Shown here piece after piece: positions 19,497-36,801 of a DNA stretch of 37,302 bases. The position numbers and the translations under genes are program-made. Position 1 is the first letter of the stretch. The number at the start of each line of letters is the position of its first letter. Origin of the DNA: Micromonosporaceae bacterium (lineage in GTDB: Bacteria > Actinomycetota > Actinomycetes > Mycobacteriales > Micromonosporaceae); the NCBI GenBank assembly GCA_016880465.1, contig JAEHDK010000003.1, positions 1-37,302 on the forward strand. The letters run 5' to 3'. The notes beneath the pieces were generated by a model. It worked only from the letters and a program-made list of their open reading frames with translations, searched no databases and was not told the origin of the DNA.

Positions 19497-20042
19497 GTGG
19501 GGGTGACCGACGAGGCGCTCCTCGCCGGCATGGCGGCGGGCGACGCGCAGGCGGCCACGACACTGGTCCGCCGGTATCAGGCGCGGGTGTACGGTCTTGC
19601 GCTCACCATCGTCGGAGTGCCCGCGACCGCGGAGGACGTGGCACAGGACGCGTTCCTGCGGGCGTGGCGGTTCGCCGGCGGTTACGACCCGCGCCGCGGT
19701 GGCGTGGCGACCTGGCTGCTCAGCATCACCAGAAACGCAGCGATCGATGCGGTGCGTATGCGGCGGGACCAGCCGTACGAACCGGAACTGCTGCTCGCGA
19801 TGCTGGACACGCGCAGCGCCGACGACGGCGGGCAGGAGCGTACCGCGGACGCCGATCGGGTCCGCACGGCGCTGCGTACCCTGCCGCGGGACCAGGCGGC
19901 GGCAGTGGTGATGGCGACGTTCTACGGCTTGACTGCGAAGGAGATCGGGGCCCGGGAGGGCGTACCCATCGGCACCGCGAAGACCCGGATCCGGCTGGGC
20001 CTGGCCCGACTGCGCGACAAACTCGAGGTGCACGATGGATGA
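19497..20042 (+). CDS. RNA polymerase ECF sigma factor
   Basis: Sigma2 VRRYQARVYGLALTIVGVPATAEDVAQDAFLRAWRF...WLLSITRNAAIDAVR and Sigma4 LPRDQAAAVVMATFYGLTAKEIGAREGVPIGTAKTRIRLGLARLR. Confidence 0.93.
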   Translation: MGVTDEALLAGMAAGDAQAATTLVRRYQARVYGLALTIVGVPATAEDVAQDAFLRAWRFAGGYDPRRGGVATWLLSITRNAAIDAVRMRRDQPYEPELLLAMLDTRSADDGGQERTADADRVRTALRTLPRDQAAAVVMATFYGLTAKEIGAREGVPIGTAKTRIRLGLARLRDKLEVHDG

Positions 20043-20748
20043 CGACCGGTACGGATGCGCGCAGGCCACAGAGCTGCTCGCCGAGCTGGCGGTCGGCGCA
20101 ATCGCCGGCGAGCAGCGGGCCGACGTACTGCGTCACGTCGCCGGGTGTCCATCCTGCCGGGCCGAGCTGGCCGAGCTGGCCCGGGTGGCCGACGGCCTGC
20201 TCCAGCTCGCGCCGCCGGTCGAGCCGCCGGCCGGCTTCGAGAGCGCCGCCCTGGCCCGGATCGCCGTCGAGGCCGCCCCGTCGCCCAGCGTGGCGGCAAA
20301 GCCGCGGTATCCCCGGATCCGGCGGCCCGGGCGCGCGCTTGCCGCGGCGTTCGCTCTGGTCGTGGCCGTCGCGCTCGGCGCGGGCGCGGTCTGGTGGCGC
20401 ACGGCGGCGGATCGCTCCCTCGCCGCGCGGACCCGGCAGACGCAGGAGCTGGCCGATGGCCGGTACCTGAAGGCGGCCCGGCTCACCACGGTGGCCGGGG
20501 ATTCCGCCGGTACGGTCTTCATGTACGAGGGCAACCCATCCTGGCTGCTGGTCACGATCTCGGCGGCCCCGGTCGACGGGTCCTACCGGGTGGTGTTGAT
20601 CAACCAGGACGGGCGGCGGTACCCGATCGGCGCCTGCGAGGTCGCCAGCGGCAGCGGGACCACCGCGTACCGCCTCGCGACGGTGGCAAGCATCGACACG
20701 ATTGAGATGACGGCACCGTCCGGGGTGCTCCTCACCGCACGGACATGA
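20035..20748 (+). CDS. Anti-sigma factor with zinc-finger (ZAS-like) domain
   Basis: HVAGCPSCRAEL motif, one TM segment (ALAAAFALVVAVALGAGAVWW), overlaps the sigma gene stop. Confidence 0.88.
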   Translation: MDDDRYGCAQATELLAELAVGAIAGEQRADVLRHVAGCPSCRAELAELARVADGLLQLAPPVEPPAGFESAALARIAVEAAPSPSVAAKPRYPRIRRPGRALAAAFALVVAVALGAGAVWWRTAADRSLAARTRQTQELADGRYLKAARLTTVAGDSAGTVFMYEGNPSWLLVTISAAPVDGSYRVVLINQDGRRYPIGACEVASGSGTTAYRLATVASIDTIEMTAPSGVLLTART

Positions 20749-24327: not shown

Positions 24328-26478
24328 GTGGCGTGGTTGGTGACAGGTGGAGCCGGCTATGTCGGTGGTGCTGTCGTACGAGCGCTGCTGGACGCCGGCC
24401 GCCGGGTGGTCGTGCTGGACGATCTGTCCACCGGGGACCGGGCAGCCGTACCCGCGGGGGTGCCGCTGGTCCGCGCGTCGGTCACCGACGCCGGTGCGGT
24501 GGGCCAGGCGCTGGTCGAGCACACGGTCACCGGGGTCATCCACCTGGCCGGCCGCAAGTCGGTCGCGGAGTCGATGGCCCAGCCGCTGACGTACTACCGG
24601 CAGAACGTCGGCGGGACCGTCGCCGTGCTGGAGGCGATGGCCCAGGTCGGCGTGCGGCAGGCGGTGCTCTCGTCGAGCGCGGCGGTCTACGGGGCGCACG
24701 AAGCGGAGCTGATCGACGAGGACGCCGTACCGTGCCCGACCACCCCGTACGGGGCCACGAAGCTGGCCTGCGAGTGGATCGTGGCGGACTCGGCTCGAGC
24801 GTACGGCCTGCGGCACGTGATACTGCGCTACTTCAACGTTGCGGGCGTGGCGGTGCCCGGCTTGGCACGGCGCGCAGACGGCCTGCTGCCGTGCGCGGTG
24901 GAGGCGGTCGCCCAGGGCAGCTCCCCGGTCGTGTTCGGTCGGGACCATCCCACCCCGGACGGGTCCTGCGTGCGGGACTACGTACACGTGCTGGACGTCG
25001 CGTCCGCCCACGCCGCCGCGGTCGAGGCGCTGGAGGCCGGTGCTGGCGGCGCAGTCTACAACGTCGGCAGCGGCGTCGGGTACTCGGTCACGGAGGTCCT
25101 CGACCTGATCCGGCGGGAGACCGGCAGCGACTTCGCGGACGACGTCCAGCCGCCCCGGGCGGGCGATCCACCGCGGGTCGTCGCGTCGGTCGCGAAGATC
25201 CGCCGTGACCTCCACTGGCGGCCGCGGCACGGGATGCCGGAGATCGTGCACGACGAGTGCCGCGTACGTGCGGCACCGGCACCCGCACCGGACCGGCCAG
25301 CTCCACCGCCCCAGCCCCAAGCGCCCCACCCGCAACCGGCACAGCGGTTCCGGAGCGAGCCGGGAACGGACGCCAAGCAGGGCCGCATCGTGGTGGTCTC
25401 GGCCGGTGTCGGCGCGGGTCATGACGGGGCGAGCCGCGAGCTGGCGCGCCGGCTGGGGGAGCGCGGCTTCCAGGTGGACTGCCTGGACGTGCTCGACATT
25501 CTGTCGTTCGGACGGCTGTTCTGCCGGGCGTACCGGGTGGTGCTGAACCGGATGCCGTGGGTCTACGGCATGCTCTTCCGGATCGCCCTCGCGTTCCGCG
25601 GTGCCAGCCCCAGCGCGCGAGCGCTGAGCCGCAAGGGCCGGCGGAAGCTGCTCCAGGCGCTGCCGCCGGACACCCGCGCAGTCGTGTCGACGTTCCCGCT
25701 CGCCACCCAGCTGCTCGGGCCGCTGCGCCGGGACGGCGAGCTCACCGTGCCCGCGATCACCTACTTCACCGACTTCGGGGTCAACCCGATCTGGGTCGCG
25801 CCCGGCGTGGATACGTACTGCGCCGGCCACGAGGTGAGCCGCGCGCAGGCCTGTGCGCTGAAGGCGGCGGACGTCCGGGTGGCCGGCCGGGCGGTGTCCG
25901 CCCGGTTCCGGCCCGGCTCGCCGGAGGTCAAGCGCCGGGCCCGGGAACGCCTCGGGCTTCCGCCCGGGCGCCTCGTCCTGCTGGTGGCCGGCTCGTGGGG
26001 CGTGGGTGAGGTGGTGGCGACGGCGGCCGAGATCGCCGGTACGGGCGTGGCCGTCCCGGTGGTGGTCTGTGCCGGCAACAAGGCGCTGTACCGCCGGCTC
26101 CAGCGGCGGCGCATCGGCCGCGTGCTCGGCTGGGTGGACGACATGCCGGCCCTGATGCACGCCGCCGACGTGCTCGTCGAGAACGCCGGCGGGCTGACTG
26201 CCCTGGAGGCCATGGCGTGTGGACTTCCGGTGCTCACGTACCGCCCGATTACCGGACACGGCACGGTGAACGCCGCGACGATGGACGAGGCCGGGGTGTC
26301 CACCTGGGTACGCCGGCCCGATGCGCTCGGCCCGACCCTGGTCGAGCTCATCGAGGGTACGCGTGGCCAGGAGCAGCGCGAGGCCGGCCTGGCGCTGTTC
26401 GAAGCGGATCCGGCAACGGTGATCGCCGACGCCGCCAAGGGTGTGCAGCCGCCGTCGACCGCCGATCGGACCGGATGA
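24328..26478 (+). CDS. Fusion: UDP-glucose 4-epimerase-like SDR + MGDG-synthase/GT28-like glycosyltransferase
   Basis: N-terminal GGAGYVGGAVVRALLDAG, SSSAAVYG, YGATK, RYFNVAG, DGSCVRDYVHVLDVA; Pro-rich linker; C-terminal VVVSAGVGAGHDGASRELARRLGERGFQVDCLDVLD and GWVDDMPALMHAADVLVENAGGLTALEAMACGLPVLTYRPITGHGTVNA. Confidence 0.9.
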   Translation: MAWLVTGGAGYVGGAVVRALLDAGRRVVVLDDLSTGDRAAVPAGVPLVRASVTDAGAVGQALVEHTVTGVIHLAGRKSVAESMAQPLTYYRQNVGGTVAVLEAMAQVGVRQAVLSSSAAVYGAHEAELIDEDAVPCPTTPYGATKLACEWIVADSARAYGLRHVILRYFNVAGVAVPGLARRADGLLPCAVEAVAQGSSPVVFGRDHPTPDGSCVRDYVHVLDVASAHAAAVEALEAGAGGAVYNVGSGVGYSVTEVLDLIRRETGSDFADDVQPPRAGDPPRVVASVAKIRRDLHWRPRHGMPEIVHDECRVRAAPAPAPDRPAPPPQPQAPHPQPAQRFRSEPGTDAKQGRIVVVSAGVGAGHDGASRELARRLGERGFQVDCLDVLDILSFGRLFCRAYRVVLNRMPWVYGMLFRIALAFRGASPSARALSRKGRRKLLQALPPDTRAVVSTFPLATQLLGPLRRDGELTVPAITYFTDFGVNPIWVAPGVDTYCAGHEVSRAQACALKAADVRVAGRAVSARFRPGSPEVKRRARERLGLPPGRLVLLVAGSWGVGEVVATAAEIAGTGVAVPVVVCAGNKALYRRLQRRRIGRVLGWVDDMPALMHAADVLVENAGGLTALEAMACGLPVLTYRPITGHGTVNAATMDEAGVSTWVRRPDALGPTLVELIEGTRGQEQREAGLALFEADPATVIADAAKGVQPPSTADRTG

Positions 26479-27239
26479 TCGGCGCGGCGACGGCCGGCAG
26501 GCGCCCCGGGACCGACCACGGCGGTACTACCACTGTGGTGGCTGCCCTGGGCGTTGCGGCCGCGGCGTACGGGGTGCCGGCGCTGACGGCGCTGCCGCGC
26601 GTGCGGACCCGGCTCCTCCCGCGCCTGTCCGGAGTCGGTGAGCCCGACCGGGTGGCGCTCACCTTCGACGACGGTCCGAGCCCTGCCTCGACGCCACGGT
26701 TCGTCGACGTGCTGGCCGGCCGGGGCGTACGGGCGACCTTCTTCCTGCTCGGGTCGGTGCTCGCCCGGGCGCCCGGCCTCGGCCGGGACCTCGTCGCCGC
26801 CGGCCACGAGGTGGCCGTGCACGGGTGGGCGCACCGCAACCTGCTGCTGCGCAGCCCGTCCGGCACATACGACGACCTGGCTCGGGCGCGTGCGCTGGTC
26901 GCGGACACGACCGGGCTGGTACCGCGGTTCTTTCGTCCCCCGTACGGCGTGTTCAGCACGTCGTCCCTGCTGGCAGCCCGCCGGCTGAACCTCACCCCGG
27001 TGCTGTGGACCTGCTGGGGCAAGGACTGGAGCCGGTCGGCGACTCCGCGGTCGGTACTGGCCAGCGTCACCACCGGGCTCTCCGGCGGCGCCACCGTTCT
27101 GCTGCACGACGCCGACTCCGCCGGCGCGTTCGGCTGGCGGTCGACCCTGGCGGCGCTGCCGCGGCTGCTCGACCACTGCGCGCAGCACGGGCTGCGGGTC
27201 GGACCGCTGAGCGAACACGGCTGCTGGGCCCGCCGGTGA
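26475..27239 (+). CDS. Polysaccharide deacetylase family protein (NodB homology)
   Basis: ALTFDDGPSPASTPRFVDVLAGRGVRATFFLLG, HEVAVHGWAHRNL, FFRPPYG; ATGA overlap with upstream gene. Confidence 0.92.
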   Translation: MIGAATAGRRPGTDHGGTTTVVAALGVAAAAYGVPALTALPRVRTRLLPRLSGVGEPDRVALTFDDGPSPASTPRFVDVLAGRGVRATFFLLGSVLARAPGLGRDLVAAGHEVAVHGWAHRNLLLRSPSGTYDDLARARALVADTTGLVPRFFRPPYGVFSTSSLLAARRLNLTPVLWTCWGKDWSRSATPRSVLASVTTGLSGGATVLLHDADSAGAFGWRSTLAALPRLLDHCAQHGLRVGPLSEHGCWARR

Positions 27240-28090
27240 ACGCCGCGGCCCTGCTGCTGGCACTCGGCTCAGCCGTTCTGTTCGGATTGAGCTCCGCGGT
27301 GCAGCAGCGGGCCGCCAAGCAGGAGAAGCGCACCACGTCGCTCGACCCGCGGTTGCTCGTACGGCTGCTGCGCCGGCCGATGTGGCTGCTGAGTTGGCCG
27401 CTCGACACCGCCGGTACCGGCCTGCAAGCACTCGCGCTGCGCGTCGGCCCGCTCGCCCTGGTCCAGCCGGTGCTGGCCAGCGGTCTGTTCCTGGCGATTC
27501 CGTTGGAGGCGGCCATCAACCGGTCGCGGGCACACCCACGCGACCTCGTGGCCGGAGCTATCGGTGTGATCGGCCTGGCCACGTTCCTGGTGGCGGCGCA
27601 ACCGCGCCAGGGCGTGTCGGATCCGTCCGCCCGGGCCTGGCTCGGTGTCGCGCTCGGATCCGGCACGGCCGTTGCGATCTGCCTTGCGCTGGCGACAAGG
27701 GCGACCAACGCGGCGCGGGGCGCATTGCTCGGGGTCGCCACCGGTTTGTTCTACTCCAACACCGCGGCCCAGCTCAAACCGGTCACCACCAAGCTGGCGC
27801 AGGACCCGCTCTCCGTGCTCACCGGCTGGCATCTCTACGTGCTCGCCGTGCTCGGCCTTACCGGCCTGCTGCTGAACCAGAACGCGTTCCAGAGCGGCCG
27901 GATCGCCGCACCGTTGACCGCCATCACCATGGTCGACCCGGTCACGAGCGTGCTGATCGCCGTGACGGCCTTCCACGAGAAACTCGACGTCAGCGGTCCG
28001 CGTCTCGTCATCGAACTGGCCGCCGCCGCAGTCATGGCGAGCGGGATCTGGCTGGCCAGCACCCGCCGCCACGTCCGGGCCGGCCGATAA
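27236..28090 (+). CDS. DMT/EamA-like transporter family protein
   Basis: About 9-10 hydrophobic helices, VNAAALLLALGSAVLFGLSSAVQQRAA...; GTGA overlap with deacetylase gene. Confidence 0.82.
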   Translation: MNAAALLLALGSAVLFGLSSAVQQRAAKQEKRTTSLDPRLLVRLLRRPMWLLSWPLDTAGTGLQALALRVGPLALVQPVLASGLFLAIPLEAAINRSRAHPRDLVAGAIGVIGLATFLVAAQPRQGVSDPSARAWLGVALGSGTAVAICLALATRATNAARGALLGVATGLFYSNTAAQLKPVTTKLAQDPLSVLTGWHLYVLAVLGLTGLLLNQNAFQSGRIAAPLTAITMVDPVTSVLIAVTAFHEKLDVSGPRLVIELAAAAVMASGIWLASTRRHVRAGR

Positions 28091-28549: not shown

Positions 28550-29413
28550 TCAGGTCGTGACGTCCCGGCGGGCGGTGAGCGTCAGGCTCCCGGCCAGGAA
28601 CAGCACCAGGTACGCACCGAGCAGGATCGTCGCCGCCGTCCCGCCTATCACGGCGGTGACACCGGGTGTCCCGTTCGGATCGCTCTGGGTCAGGGCGCCG
28701 ACCGCCCCGGCCAGTGAGCCGGCCGCCGTACCGGGCAACACGTCCGTCACGTTCGCCACCGGCCCCAGGAGCCCGGCCACGCCGCGCAGCAGGTTCTCGA
28801 CCACGAGCGACCAGACCAGGCCGAGCCCGACGGCGAGGGCGGGACCGCGGGTCAGCGTGCCGAGCAGCACTCCGGCGGCCATCCACATGGCGCTGATGAG
28901 CAGTGCCGCGCCGAACCCCTGGGCCGAGTCGGCCAGGCTGGGCCACGTCGTCGGCTGTGACTCCGCGGCGGCGACGGTGAAGGATGCGATCAGGTCGAGG
29001 ACGAACGTCACGGCGATCAACCCGGCGAGGACGATGCCGAGGGCGGCCATCGTGCCGCCGAGCGCGGTGTGCCGCCGTGGCCTGGTGGTGAAGATGGTCT
29101 TCCAGGTGCCCCAGCCGTACCCGCTGCCTACCGTGATGGCGCCGAGGATCAGCAGCAGCGCGCCGCCGAACATCGGCAACCCGGCCACCAGCGTGATCGG
29201 AGCCTGGTCGGGCATCAGGTGGCGCAGCAGGACCCTGGCCGTGGCGGCGTCGGTGATGTTCTCGGCGAACCCGCTGCCATCCCGGCTGCGATAGCTCAGG
29301 TAGTTGAACAGGTAGCCGAAGGCCAGGTTGAGCACCAACCAGGTGCCGCACAGCACCCAGGTAACGGGCCACCGGCGCAGGCGCAGCAGCTCGGCGCGCA
29401 GGCTCGCGATCAT
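28550..29413 (-). CDS. ABC transporter permease
   Basis: MIASLRAELLRLRRWPVTWVLCGTWLVLNLAFGYLF... six TM segments; ATGA overlap with ATPase gene. Confidence 0.85.
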   Translation of the reverse strand: MIASLRAELLRLRRWPVTWVLCGTWLVLNLAFGYLFNYLSYRSRDGSGFAENITDAATARVLLRHLMPDQAPITLVAGLPMFGGALLLILGAITVGSGYGWGTWKTIFTTRPRRHTALGGTMAALGIVLAGLIAVTFVLDLIASFTVAAAESQPTTWPSLADSAQGFGAALLISAMWMAAGVLLGTLTRGPALAVGLGLVWSLVVENLLRGVAGLLGPVANVTDVLPGTAAGSLAGAVGALTQSDPNGTPGVTAVIGGTAATILLGAYLVLFLAGSLTLTARRDVTT

Positions 29414-30318
29414 GATGGGATCTCCTCTCGGGTCTTGGTCATCGCGATGAAGGCGTCCTCCAGCGTCCGTTCGACCGGGCGTACCTCGGTCACCGCGACG
29501 CCGGACAGGACGAGTGCGCGATTGAGCTCGGCCGTACTGCTGGCGTCGATGGACAGCCGGAGCGCTCCGTCCTCTGTGGACACCCGCTCGGCGCCGATGA
29601 GGTTGGTGGCCACCTCGCGCGCGGTCGCCAGCGGCTCGGCGCGTACCAGCACGCTGGCCTGGCCGCGCAGGTCCGCGACCGTGCTCTCGACGAGCAACCG
29701 CCCGGCGACGATGACGCCGACCCGGTCGCAGATCTGCTCGACCTCGCCGAGCAGGTGGCTCGACAGCAGGACCGTCTGGCCGTGGTCGGCCAGCGTACGG
29801 ATCAGCTCGCGCATGTCCGCCATGCCGTTGGGGTCCAGCCCGTTGGTGGGCTCGTCGAGGATGAGCAGCTCCGGATCGCCGAGCAGCGCCGCCGCCACCC
29901 CGAGCCGCTGCTTCATGCCGAGGGAGTACGAGCGGAACCGGTCGCCGCCGCGGCCGGACAGGTCCACCAGCTCCAGGGCGGCCTCCACCGCGATGTCGTC
30001 GAGCCCGGCGTACCGGGCCAGCACCCGCAGGTTGTCCCGGCCGGTCAGGTACGGATAGAAGCCGGGACCCTCGATCAGCGCGCCGATGCGGGACAGCCCC
30101 GCCGATGCGCCGGGCGGTTGGCCGAGGACGGTGGCCTCGCCGCTGGTGGGCCGTACGAGGCCGAGCAGCATGCGCAGCGTGGTCGTCTTGCCGGCGCCGT
30201 TGGGTCCGAGGAAGCCGTACACCTCGCCGCGCCGGACGGTGAGGTCGACCCGGTCGGCGGCCAGCCGCTCGCCGTACCGCTTGGTCAGGGCTCGGGTGGT
30301 CACGATTGGTTCGGTCAT
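29410..30318 (-). CDS. ABC transporter ATP-binding protein
   Basis: Walker A GPNGAGKTTT, signature YSLGMKQRLGVAAALL, Walker B LLILDEPTNGLD. Confidence 0.95.
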   Translation of the reverse strand: MTEPIVTTRALTKRYGERLAADRVDLTVRRGEVYGFLGPNGAGKTTTLRMLLGLVRPTSGEATVLGQPPGASAGLSRIGALIEGPGFYPYLTGRDNLRVLARYAGLDDIAVEAALELVDLSGRGGDRFRSYSLGMKQRLGVAAALLGDPELLILDEPTNGLDPNGMADMRELIRTLADHGQTVLLSSHLLGEVEQICDRVGVIVAGRLLVESTVADLRGQASVLVRAEPLATAREVATNLIGAERVSTEDGALRLSIDASSTAELNRALVLSGVAVTEVRPVERTLEDAFIAMTKTREEIPS

Positions 30319-30451
30319 GCAACCCACCCTCGCCGGCCGGGCCGTCGCCGTCGTCCGCCGGTGAGCGGCTTCGCGAGTACGGGAATCTGCGTACGGCGCG
30401 TACGTCGCCGTGCTGACGGCGGGGCAGGCGCCGCCGGCCTAAGGTCGGACC

Positions 30452-31597
30452 ATGGCAGCTCGGCGTATCACCTGGCCCGACCTCGTGCTCGCGGCCGTGC
30501 TGCTCGTGTTCGGCCTGTTCGGGACCGCGGGGGCCGCCAACAACCAGGGCCAGTCGGCGCCCCTCTTGTCGTACGTCCTCGTGGCGGCCGCCTGCTTACC
30601 CCTCGTGCTCTGGCGGTTCCGGCCCACCTGGGCGTTCGCCCTGACCGGTGCGGCGACGATGACCTACCTCGGGCTGGGGTACGTATACGGGCCGATCCTG
30701 TTCGCGCTGCTCCTTGCCATCTACGGGCTGGCGGTGCGGTCCCCGGTCCGGCACACCGTCGTGAGCATGGCGGTACTGTCCGCGGCGAGCGTCGTGGCGA
30801 TCGCCATCGGCGTGCTCGCCGGCGACCGGAGCTGGACCGAGTTCCTCACGGTGGCCGCCTGGCTCGTTGTTCCGGCGGGACTCGGCACCGTGCTGAAGAT
30901 CCGCCGGGATGCGGCCGCGGACGTACGGGCCGAGCAGGCGCGCCGCGCCGTCTCCGAGGAACGGCTACAGCTCGCGCAGGAGGTCCATGACGTGGTCGGT
31001 CACGGTCTCGCGGTGATCGCGATGCAGGCGGGCGTGGCGTTGCGGGTCCTCGACCGCGAGCCGGCCCGGGTCCGGGAAGCGCTGGAGGCGATCCGGGCGA
31101 CGAGCAAGGAGGCGCTGGACGGCCTGCGGGCCGAACTGGACGCACTGCGTACGGAGTCCGCCCTGCGGGAAGCCCCCCGCCACCCGGTGCCGGGGCTGGC
31201 CGACCTGTCCGGGCTGGCCGAGCGGATCCGGTCGAGCGGGCTCCCGGTCACCATGGACCTGGGCCGGGGCGATGCGGCGCCGGACGGGGTACCTCCGGCC
31301 GTCGACCACGCGGCGTACCGGATCGTGCAGGAGTCGCTGACCAACGTGCTGCGCCACGGCGGTCCCGACGCGACCGCGCGGCTACGGATCCACCGCGACG
31401 GCACCACGCTGCACATCGAGGTCCTCGACACGGGCCGGGGCGGTGTCGCGGCGCCGGGCGGCCACGGCATCGAGGGGATGCGGGAGCGGGCCCGGGCGCT
31501 CGGCGGCGCCGTCGAGGCCGGGCCACGTCCCGCCGGCGGGTTCGCGGTGACGGCCCGGCTGCCGGCCACGACAAGCAGCTCGGGAGGGACCGGGTGA
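30452..31597 (+). CDS. Sensor histidine kinase (HisKA_3/NarL-type partner)
   Basis: N-terminal TM region; EVHDVVGHGLAVIAMQAGVALRVL; C-terminal HATPase VLDTGRGG...GHGIEGMRERARALGG. Confidence 0.93.
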   Translation: MAARRITWPDLVLAAVLLVFGLFGTAGAANNQGQSAPLLSYVLVAAACLPLVLWRFRPTWAFALTGAATMTYLGLGYVYGPILFALLLAIYGLAVRSPVRHTVVSMAVLSAASVVAIAIGVLAGDRSWTEFLTVAAWLVVPAGLGTVLKIRRDAAADVRAEQARRAVSEERLQLAQEVHDVVGHGLAVIAMQAGVALRVLDREPARVREALEAIRATSKEALDGLRAELDALRTESALREAPRHPVPGLADLSGLAERIRSSGLPVTMDLGRGDAAPDGVPPAVDHAAYRIVQESLTNVLRHGGPDATARLRIHRDGTTLHIEVLDTGRGGVAAPGGHGIEGMRERARALGGAVEAGPRPAGGFAVTARLPATTSSSGGTG

Positions 31598-32247
31598 TCC
31601 GCGTCGCCGTCGTCGACGACCAGGCGCTCGTCCGCGTGGGCCTGCGTACGCTGCTCGACACCGAGGACGACCTGGAACTCGTGGCCGAGGCCGCCGACGG
31701 CCGGGAAGGGCTGGCCGCCATCCGCCGGACGCGGCCGGACGTCGTCCTGATGGACATCCGGATGCCGCAGCTCGACGGGCTGGCGGCGCTGCGGGAGATC
31801 ACCGCCGACCCGGCACTGCGGGACGTACGGGTGGTCATGCTGACGACCTTCGAGCTCGACGAGTACGTGTTCGAGGCGCTGCGCGCGGGCGCCAGTGGCT
31901 TCGTACTCAAGGACGCGGAGCCCGAGGAACTGGTGCGGGCGGTACGGGTCGTCGCCGCCGGCGAGTCGCTGCTGTCGCCCTCGGTCACCCGCCGCGTGAT
32001 CCAGCAGCTCGCCGGGGCCGGACCCACCCGGCCGGCACCGCATCCGCAGCTGAGCCGGCTCACCGACCGGGAACGGGAGATCGTCGCCTGGGTCGCCACC
32101 GGTCGCTCGAACGATGAGATCGCGGCTGAGTTGGTGGTCAGCCCGGCCACCGTACGGACCCACGTCAGCCGCGCGATGGTCAAGCTGGGTGCGCGCGACC
32201 GGGCCCAGCTCGTCGTCTACGCCGTGCAGTCCGGCCTCACGACGTAG
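31594..32247 (+). CDS. Response regulator, LuxR/NarL family
   Basis: IRVAVVDDQALVRVGLRTLL, DVVLMDIRMP, LTDREREIVAWVATGRSNDEIAAELVVSPATVRTHVSRAMVKLGARDR. Confidence 0.95.
   Translation: MIRVAVVDDQALVRVGLRTLLDTEDDLELVAEAADGREGLAAIRRTRPDVVLMDIRMPQLDGLAALREITADPALRDVRVVMLTTFELDEYVFEALRAGASGFVLKDAEPEELVRAVRVVAAGESLLSPSVTRRVIQQLAGAGPTRPAPHPQLSRLTDREREIVAWVATGRSNDEIAAELVVSPATVRTHVSRAMVKLGARDRAQLVVYAVQSGLTT

Positions 32248-33168: not shown

Positions 33169-36801
<3,633 letters not shown>

Follow-up and report, generated by a model that had tools for sequence, protein, structure and literature searches.

An epimerase–glycosyltransferase fusion in a putative amino-sugar lipid operon of a Micromonosporaceae bacterium

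Described amino-sugar lipid systems and a related operon

Among the described systems closest to the operon reported here, HexSDF of Clostridioides difficile makes aminohexosyl-hexosyl-diradylglycerol with a monogalactosyldiacylglycerol (MGDG)-synthase-type glycosyltransferase (GT), a flippase resembling MprF and a polysaccharide deacetylase, and when the deacetylase is mutated the N-acetylated lipid builds up (PMC10128005); the system requires a hexosyl-diradylglycerol acceptor (PMC11898633). In Pseudomonas aeruginosa, GpgSDF puts N-acetylglucosamine (GlcNAc) on phosphatidylglycerol with proteins of other families, and the sugar is then deacetylated (PMC12713373). Deacetylation is proposed to take place outside for HexD (PMC10128005) and inside for GpgD (PMC12713373). 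HpnI and HpnK of proteobacteria add GlcNAc to bacteriohopanetetrol and then deacetylate it, accompanied by HpnA, a sugar epimerase, and HpnB, a GT, both of unknown function (PMC12583986). The operon described here lies in a 37302-base stretch (hereafter, the window), which is one whole contig with 70% GC from the draft genome (G000; 5.5 Mb, 808 contigs) of a soil-type actinobacterium of the Micromonosporaceae, and it encodes a GalE-type UDP-sugar 4-epimerase fused to an MGDG-synthase-type GT, an N-deacetylase and a DMT-family membrane protein.

We tentatively read the operon, at a confidence slightly below even, as a synthase–deacetylase–flippase module for an amino-sugar membrane lipid with a sterol-like hopanoid as acceptor. 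The GalE half would epimerize a UDP-sugar at position 4, the likeliest product being UDP-N-acetylgalactosamine made from UDP-GlcNAc, or else UDP-Gal; the tethered GT half would move this sugar onto a membrane lipid, for which a bacteriohopanepolyol (an extended hopanoid) is the likeliest candidate; the deacetylase would strip the acetyl group and so expose the amine of a galactosaminyl lipid; and the product would be carried across the membrane by the DMT protein. What we infer is which sugar is used, which lipid accepts it, whether deacetylation or flipping comes first, and that the DMT protein acts as a flippase; the gene order, the intact folds and motifs, the fusion in four genera, the co-occurrence of GT and deacetylase, the place of the GT among those of hopanoid operons, and the hopanoid genes of the same genome were observed directly. 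The compact lipid-glycosylation operon proposed by a first-pass annotation of this DNA was supported in the form of an epimerase, a GT, a deacetylase and a putative flippase. If the reading is right, the predicted amino-sugar lipid could alter membrane charge.

The likeness to HexSDF is one of operon content: in both, a GT of MGDG-synthase type shares an operon with a polysaccharide deacetylase and a membrane protein. HexSDF differs in having no epimerase, an MprF-like flippase in place of a DMT-type protein with a putative flippase role, a hexosyl-diradylglycerol acceptor and no hopanoid link. GpgSDF shares the synthase–deacetylase–flippase logic, but its synthase is of GT4 type, its deacetylase belongs to COG3233, its flippase is of YbhN type and its acceptor is phosphatidylglycerol. 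HpnI and HpnK, together with HpnA and HpnB, offer a parallel in the transfer of a sugar to a hopanoid, its deacetylation, and the accompanying epimerase and GT, although their protein families differ from those of the operon. What sets this HexSDF-like module apart is the fusion of its epimerase, a membrane protein of DMT rather than MprF type, and a GT whose nearest kin are found in hopanoid operons. By analogy, actinobacterial GT–deacetylase operons may act like HexSDF in outline; if so, a scheme so far described in C. difficile and P. aeruginosa would be widened to many actinobacterial operons.

Hopanoid-linked relatives and the proposed donor sugar and acceptor

The genomic setting of the nearest GT relatives lay beyond the view of the first-pass annotation. 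Directly after the nearest unfused GTs (60%–66% identity) comes the same DMT gene, ahead of hpnC, hpnD, hpnE and the genes for a polyprenyl synthetase and squalene-hopene cyclase (SHC). This order was seen at loci L072–L082 without L079, and at L089 and L090 (L076, counted as hopanoid-linked, ends inside hpnC at a contig end). In Dactylosporangium (L154–L157), a deacetylase gene is followed by hpnC, hpnD, hpnE, polyprenyl synthetase, SHC, hpnG/ispH and hpnH, then by an SDR gene on the opposite strand, and then by the GT–DMT pair. In the GT tree, a clade of 21 rows, with a Shimodaira–Hasegawa-like approximate likelihood-ratio test (SH-aLRT) support of 96, contains only the four GalE-fused GTs and 17 GT–DMT pairs at hopanoid operons. 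SHC was present in 22/22 genomes carrying a GT at least 55% identical to ours, compared with 44/200 overall, and the association held by genus (11/11 vs. 18/44, p=4e-6), with relatedness ignored in these p-values.

All four fusion-carrying genomes, that of Micromonospora yasonensis included, have SHC. The window's own genome, the sole representative of its genus in the compared set (named family relatives are Micromonosporaceae), has, on a separate contig (C222), the genes hpnD, hpnE, polyprenyl synthetase, SHC, hpnG/ispH and hpnH, and therefore those for extended hopanoids. HpnI (TIGR03472) and HpnK (TIGR03473) cut-offs were passed in 0/150 family genomes, own genome included, and on this ground we rejected these two proteins as the sugar source there. 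None of the papers searched described hopanoid glycosylation in Micromonosporaceae. It is possible, although we hold the idea with some doubt, that Actinobacteria have a hopanoid-glycosylation pathway of their own, built from HexSDF-type enzymes and not from HpnI/HpnK, and that the epimerase fusion here leads to galactosaminyl-hopanoids, a head group undescribed in the papers found. Such a pathway would open the hopanoid head groups of Actinobacteria to genetic study, and could be tested as a parallel to HpnA and HpnB.

The donor sugar is suggested by the company that the GT keeps. Of 200 family genomes, 56 had a close GT together with a cassette-type deacetylase and 140 had neither, with the GT alone in two and the deacetylase alone in two. 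They were mostly neighbors in 80 named actinobacterial loci (Streptomyces, Actinacidiphila, Frankia, Kitasatospora, Actinoallomurus and others). A deacetylase would be expected in this pairing only for the transfer of an N-acetylated sugar, and the probable donor is therefore a UDP-N-acetylhexosamine. Some Micromonospora-type loci (L096, L104, L110, L164) have a protein with an LPG_synthase_TM (MprF flippase) domain adjoining the GT and deacetylase, which matches the pairing in HexSDF, and a two-component system lies close by in others (L106, L111, L113, L119).

Several points weigh against an amino-sugar hopanoid product, the neglect of relatedness in the SHC association among them. The cassette lies outside the hopanoid operon of its own genome, and the two are far apart in Phytohabitans flavus and Rugosimonospora africana as well. 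SHC is missing in 26/36 genomes that carry only distant-type GT–deacetylase pairs, so the ancestral acceptor was probably not a hopanoid; this leaves a change of acceptor or a regulatory link as explanations. Two genomes (G014, G036) have a GT of ∼55% identity without the deacetylase, and the deacetylase is unlinked to the GT in Plantactinospora and others. Finally, the GalE column matching the gatekeeper residue 299 of E. coli is Val, both in the window and in GT-linked GalEs, which is permissive only: it fits the use of an N-acetyl sugar without proving it.

The same amino-sugar chemistry could instead act on diacylglycerol, hexosyl-diacylglycerol or a phospholipid, making this a HexSDF-type module proper, with the hopanoid linkage reflecting co-regulation of membrane lipids. 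We consider this somewhat unlikely. HexS is itself an MGDG-synthase-type GT with hexosyl-diradylglycerol as its acceptor, its partner HexD is a polysaccharide deacetylase, the structural neighbors of the GT half (MGD1 and UgtP) act on diacylglycerol, and most GT relatives lie outside hopanoid operons. The GT clade of the window is, however, otherwise wholly linked to hopanoid operons, and no second, UgtA-like GT for making hexosyl-diacylglycerol was found in the draft genome, where only one weak partial match to the GT family was seen besides the fusion.

The first-pass annotation had proposed that UDP-Gal (or a related sugar) is passed to a lipid acceptor. A neutral galactolipid made from UDP-Gal and diacylglycerol, with the deacetylase acting on something else, agrees with the GalE equivalog match and the MGDG_synth match, but we regard it as improbable and no longer as the best interpretation: the GT and the deacetylase are nearly inseparable in the 200 genomes, which an N-acetylhexosamine donor fits better, and the donor site itself differs. 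The GQE motif of MGD1 and UgtP is replaced by GHG (within PITGHG), and His295-Gly296 are invariant in 56 relatives. A MurG, which uses a GlcNAc donor, also has a His at the aligned position, and the motif weakly points to a UDP-N-acetylhexosamine donor.

There is also a slim chance of a cell-wall or polyprenyl-linked route, in which the sugar would be placed on a polyprenyl carrier, deacetylated, flipped and passed to a wall polymer, as in the Arn or polyprenyl-phosphate galactosamine pathways. A deacetylase with a DMT-like carrier resembles ArnD with ArnE/F in outline, the GT-B fold is also like that of MurG, and a D-Ala-D-Ala carboxypeptidase and a GT4 adjoin some of the relatives. Against this, the closest matches to the GT are UgtP and MGD1, enzymes with lipid acceptors, and no wall-polymer transferase was found in or adjoining the operon.

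We noted three further features of hopanoid loci. A second fusion joins an MGDG-type GT to a wax-ester-synthase/DGAT acyltransferase (∼770–980 aa), usually near a DMT gene, at L134–L142 and L144–L147 (e.g., L135:9057-11693, minus strand). At seven of these loci (L134–L140) it adjoins hpnH with a short gene between them, and SHC is present in 14/14 genomes assigned this GT group, which suggests a route to acylated glycosyl-hopanoids. At two loci (L148:8076-9557, minus strand, in the own genome; L085:9601-11145, minus strand), a hopanoid-operon protein joins an HpnG-like phosphorylase domain at its N-terminus to IspH/LytB. Three genomes of one genus (G017, G051, G109) have SHC without this GT and deacetylase, and contain HpnK-like matches of 114–175 bits, below the cut-off, that are a possible alternative deacetylase.

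The epimerase–glycosyltransferase fusion and its operon partners

The fusion open reading frame (ORF; 24328-26478, plus strand) has a GTG start and 716 codons open in a single frame. An antisense ORF of 654 aa overlaps it; because long open frames are common at 70% GC, as this one illustrates, the evidence for the fusion is its domain content and not its length. Residues 1–312 matched TIGR01179 (galE) with 314.7 bits, passing the equivalog cut-off of 262.3, and retain intact motifs: GGAGYVG at 7 (the NAD motif GxxGxxG), and SSSAAVYG at 115 and YGATK at 141 (the catalytic Ser and YxxxK residues). When scanned alone, the GT half matched MGDG_synth (PF06925; 33.5 bits, cut-off 25), as did 54/56 relatives, and Glyco_trans_1_4 (34.7 bits, cut-off 27). 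Of the domains named in the first-pass annotation, the epimerase was thus recovered, MGDG_synth was recovered with the GT half and was absent from the reported matches when the whole fusion protein was scanned, and Glyco_tran_28_C stayed slightly below its cut-off (21.1 vs. 22). The GT scored 95.5 bits against the UgtP diglucosyl-diacylglycerol synthase model PRK13609, missing the equivalog cut-off of 500 bits, and departs from only 4/87 columns conserved at ≥90%.

The AlphaFold model of the GT half is confident, with a predicted local distance difference test (pLDDT) score of 92.2 and a predicted template modeling (pTM) score of 0.91. Its best solved folds in a Foldseek search were those of MGD1 (4x1t, E 5e-17, TMq 0.62; 4wyi), followed by MurG, and a profile search returned 9wde, a UgtP-type diacylglycerol glucosyltransferase, and MGD1 (4wyi). 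The GT half shares its fold and the MGDG_synth domain with MGD1 and UgtP, but those enzymes are stand-alone, use hexose donors and carry GQE where the GT half has GHG. The model of the full fusion has two good domains separated by a disordered linker (residues 319–348), with an uncertain mutual arrangement and an overall pTM of 0.54. The direct channeling of the sugar proposed in the first-pass annotation found no structural support here, and the model supports a tethering of the two halves, not a rigid channel.

The two downstream genes follow with 4-nt overlaps, as first annotated: ATGA at 26475-26478 between the fusion and the deacetylase, and GTGA at 27236-27239 between the deacetylase and the DMT gene. 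The deacetylase matched PF01522 (104.7 bits, cut-off 23.1), has all five CE4 catalytic motifs (TFDDGP, HGWAH, RPPYG, DWS and LLHD) and a single segment resembling a membrane anchor (residues 21–39). The loss of key catalytic residues in either half of the fusion, named in the first-pass annotation as a possible refutation, was not seen, and the expected motifs of all three enzyme modules are present. The DMT protein matched NF038012 (106.3 bits, cut-off 50), has seven hydrophobic segments in a simple scan and is a putative glycolipid flippase.

A survey of the spread of the fusion, suggested in the first-pass annotation, placed it in four genera and found it to be rare among GT relatives. Apart from the window, it was found in M. 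yasonensis (L174), in one frame of 704 aa, with DNA just past the stop that resembles the start of a DMT gene; in R. africana (L087 = L190), in one frame of 913 aa, with a deacetylase gene next; and in P. flavus (L079 = L176), where deacetylase and DMT genes come next and a single frame break cuts the epimerase in two. This break (L079:8508-8520) lies at a run of five C and may be a sequencing error or a true mutation. The linkers differ in length and sequence among the fused proteins, and identity to the two other one-frame fusions is 60%–73%. Domain matches, motifs and the other genera together confirm the uninterrupted 716-aa frame, with an intact epimerase, a Pro-rich linker and an MGDG-synthase-like GT, that was first annotated. 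None of the papers searched described a GalE–MGDG-synthase fusion.

The four fused GTs form one group in the GT tree (SH-aLRT 89), and the fused GalEs fall together in the GalE tree (support 99) with one long-branched outsider, so that a single fusion event is likely; the fusion is real and rare. Unfused operons with the order GT–deacetylase–galE were found at five loci (L106, L112, L119, L127, L130). These lie in other parts of both trees, and the link between a 4-epimerase and the GT–deacetylase pair therefore probably arose more than once in evolution. A false join of two genes through an assembly or frame error, which a draft genome in 808 contigs might suggest, is vanishingly unlikely and was rejected on the strength of one-frame fusions with different linkers in two other genera.

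Feature coordinates and neighboring genes

Table 1. Coordinates of the operon features within the window
Feature	Position	Strand	Basis
GalE-type UDP-sugar 4-epimerase half (residues 1–312 of the fusion)	24328..25263	+	TIGR01179, motifs, nearest solved chain 2c20
Pro-rich linker, predicted disordered at residues 319–348	25264..25374	+	pLDDT below 50; length and sequence vary among fused proteins
MGDG-synthase/UgtP-type GT-B glycosyltransferase half (residues 350–716)	25375..26478	+	PF06925, AlphaFold model, fold matches
NodB/CE4-type N-deacetylase	26475..27239	+	PF01522, motifs; ATG overlaps fusion stop (ATGA)
DMT-family integral membrane protein, putative glycolipid flippase	27236..28090	+	NF038012; GTG overlaps deacetylase stop (GTGA)

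The 37302 bases of the window contained no hopanoid genes and no Rfam match to an RNA element. PADLOC gave no match to a defence function, and a scan for sigma-70 promoters found none. Upstream of the operon, genes for an extracytoplasmic function (ECF) sigma factor and then a zinc-finger (anti-sigma-like) protein overlap at their ends (19497-20748, plus strand). Downstream (28550-32247), an ABC transporter pair on the minus strand is convergent with the operon, with a histidine kinase and a response regulator beyond it on the plus strand. A complete-looking B12-dependent methionine synthase gene occupies 33169-36801 on the minus strand.

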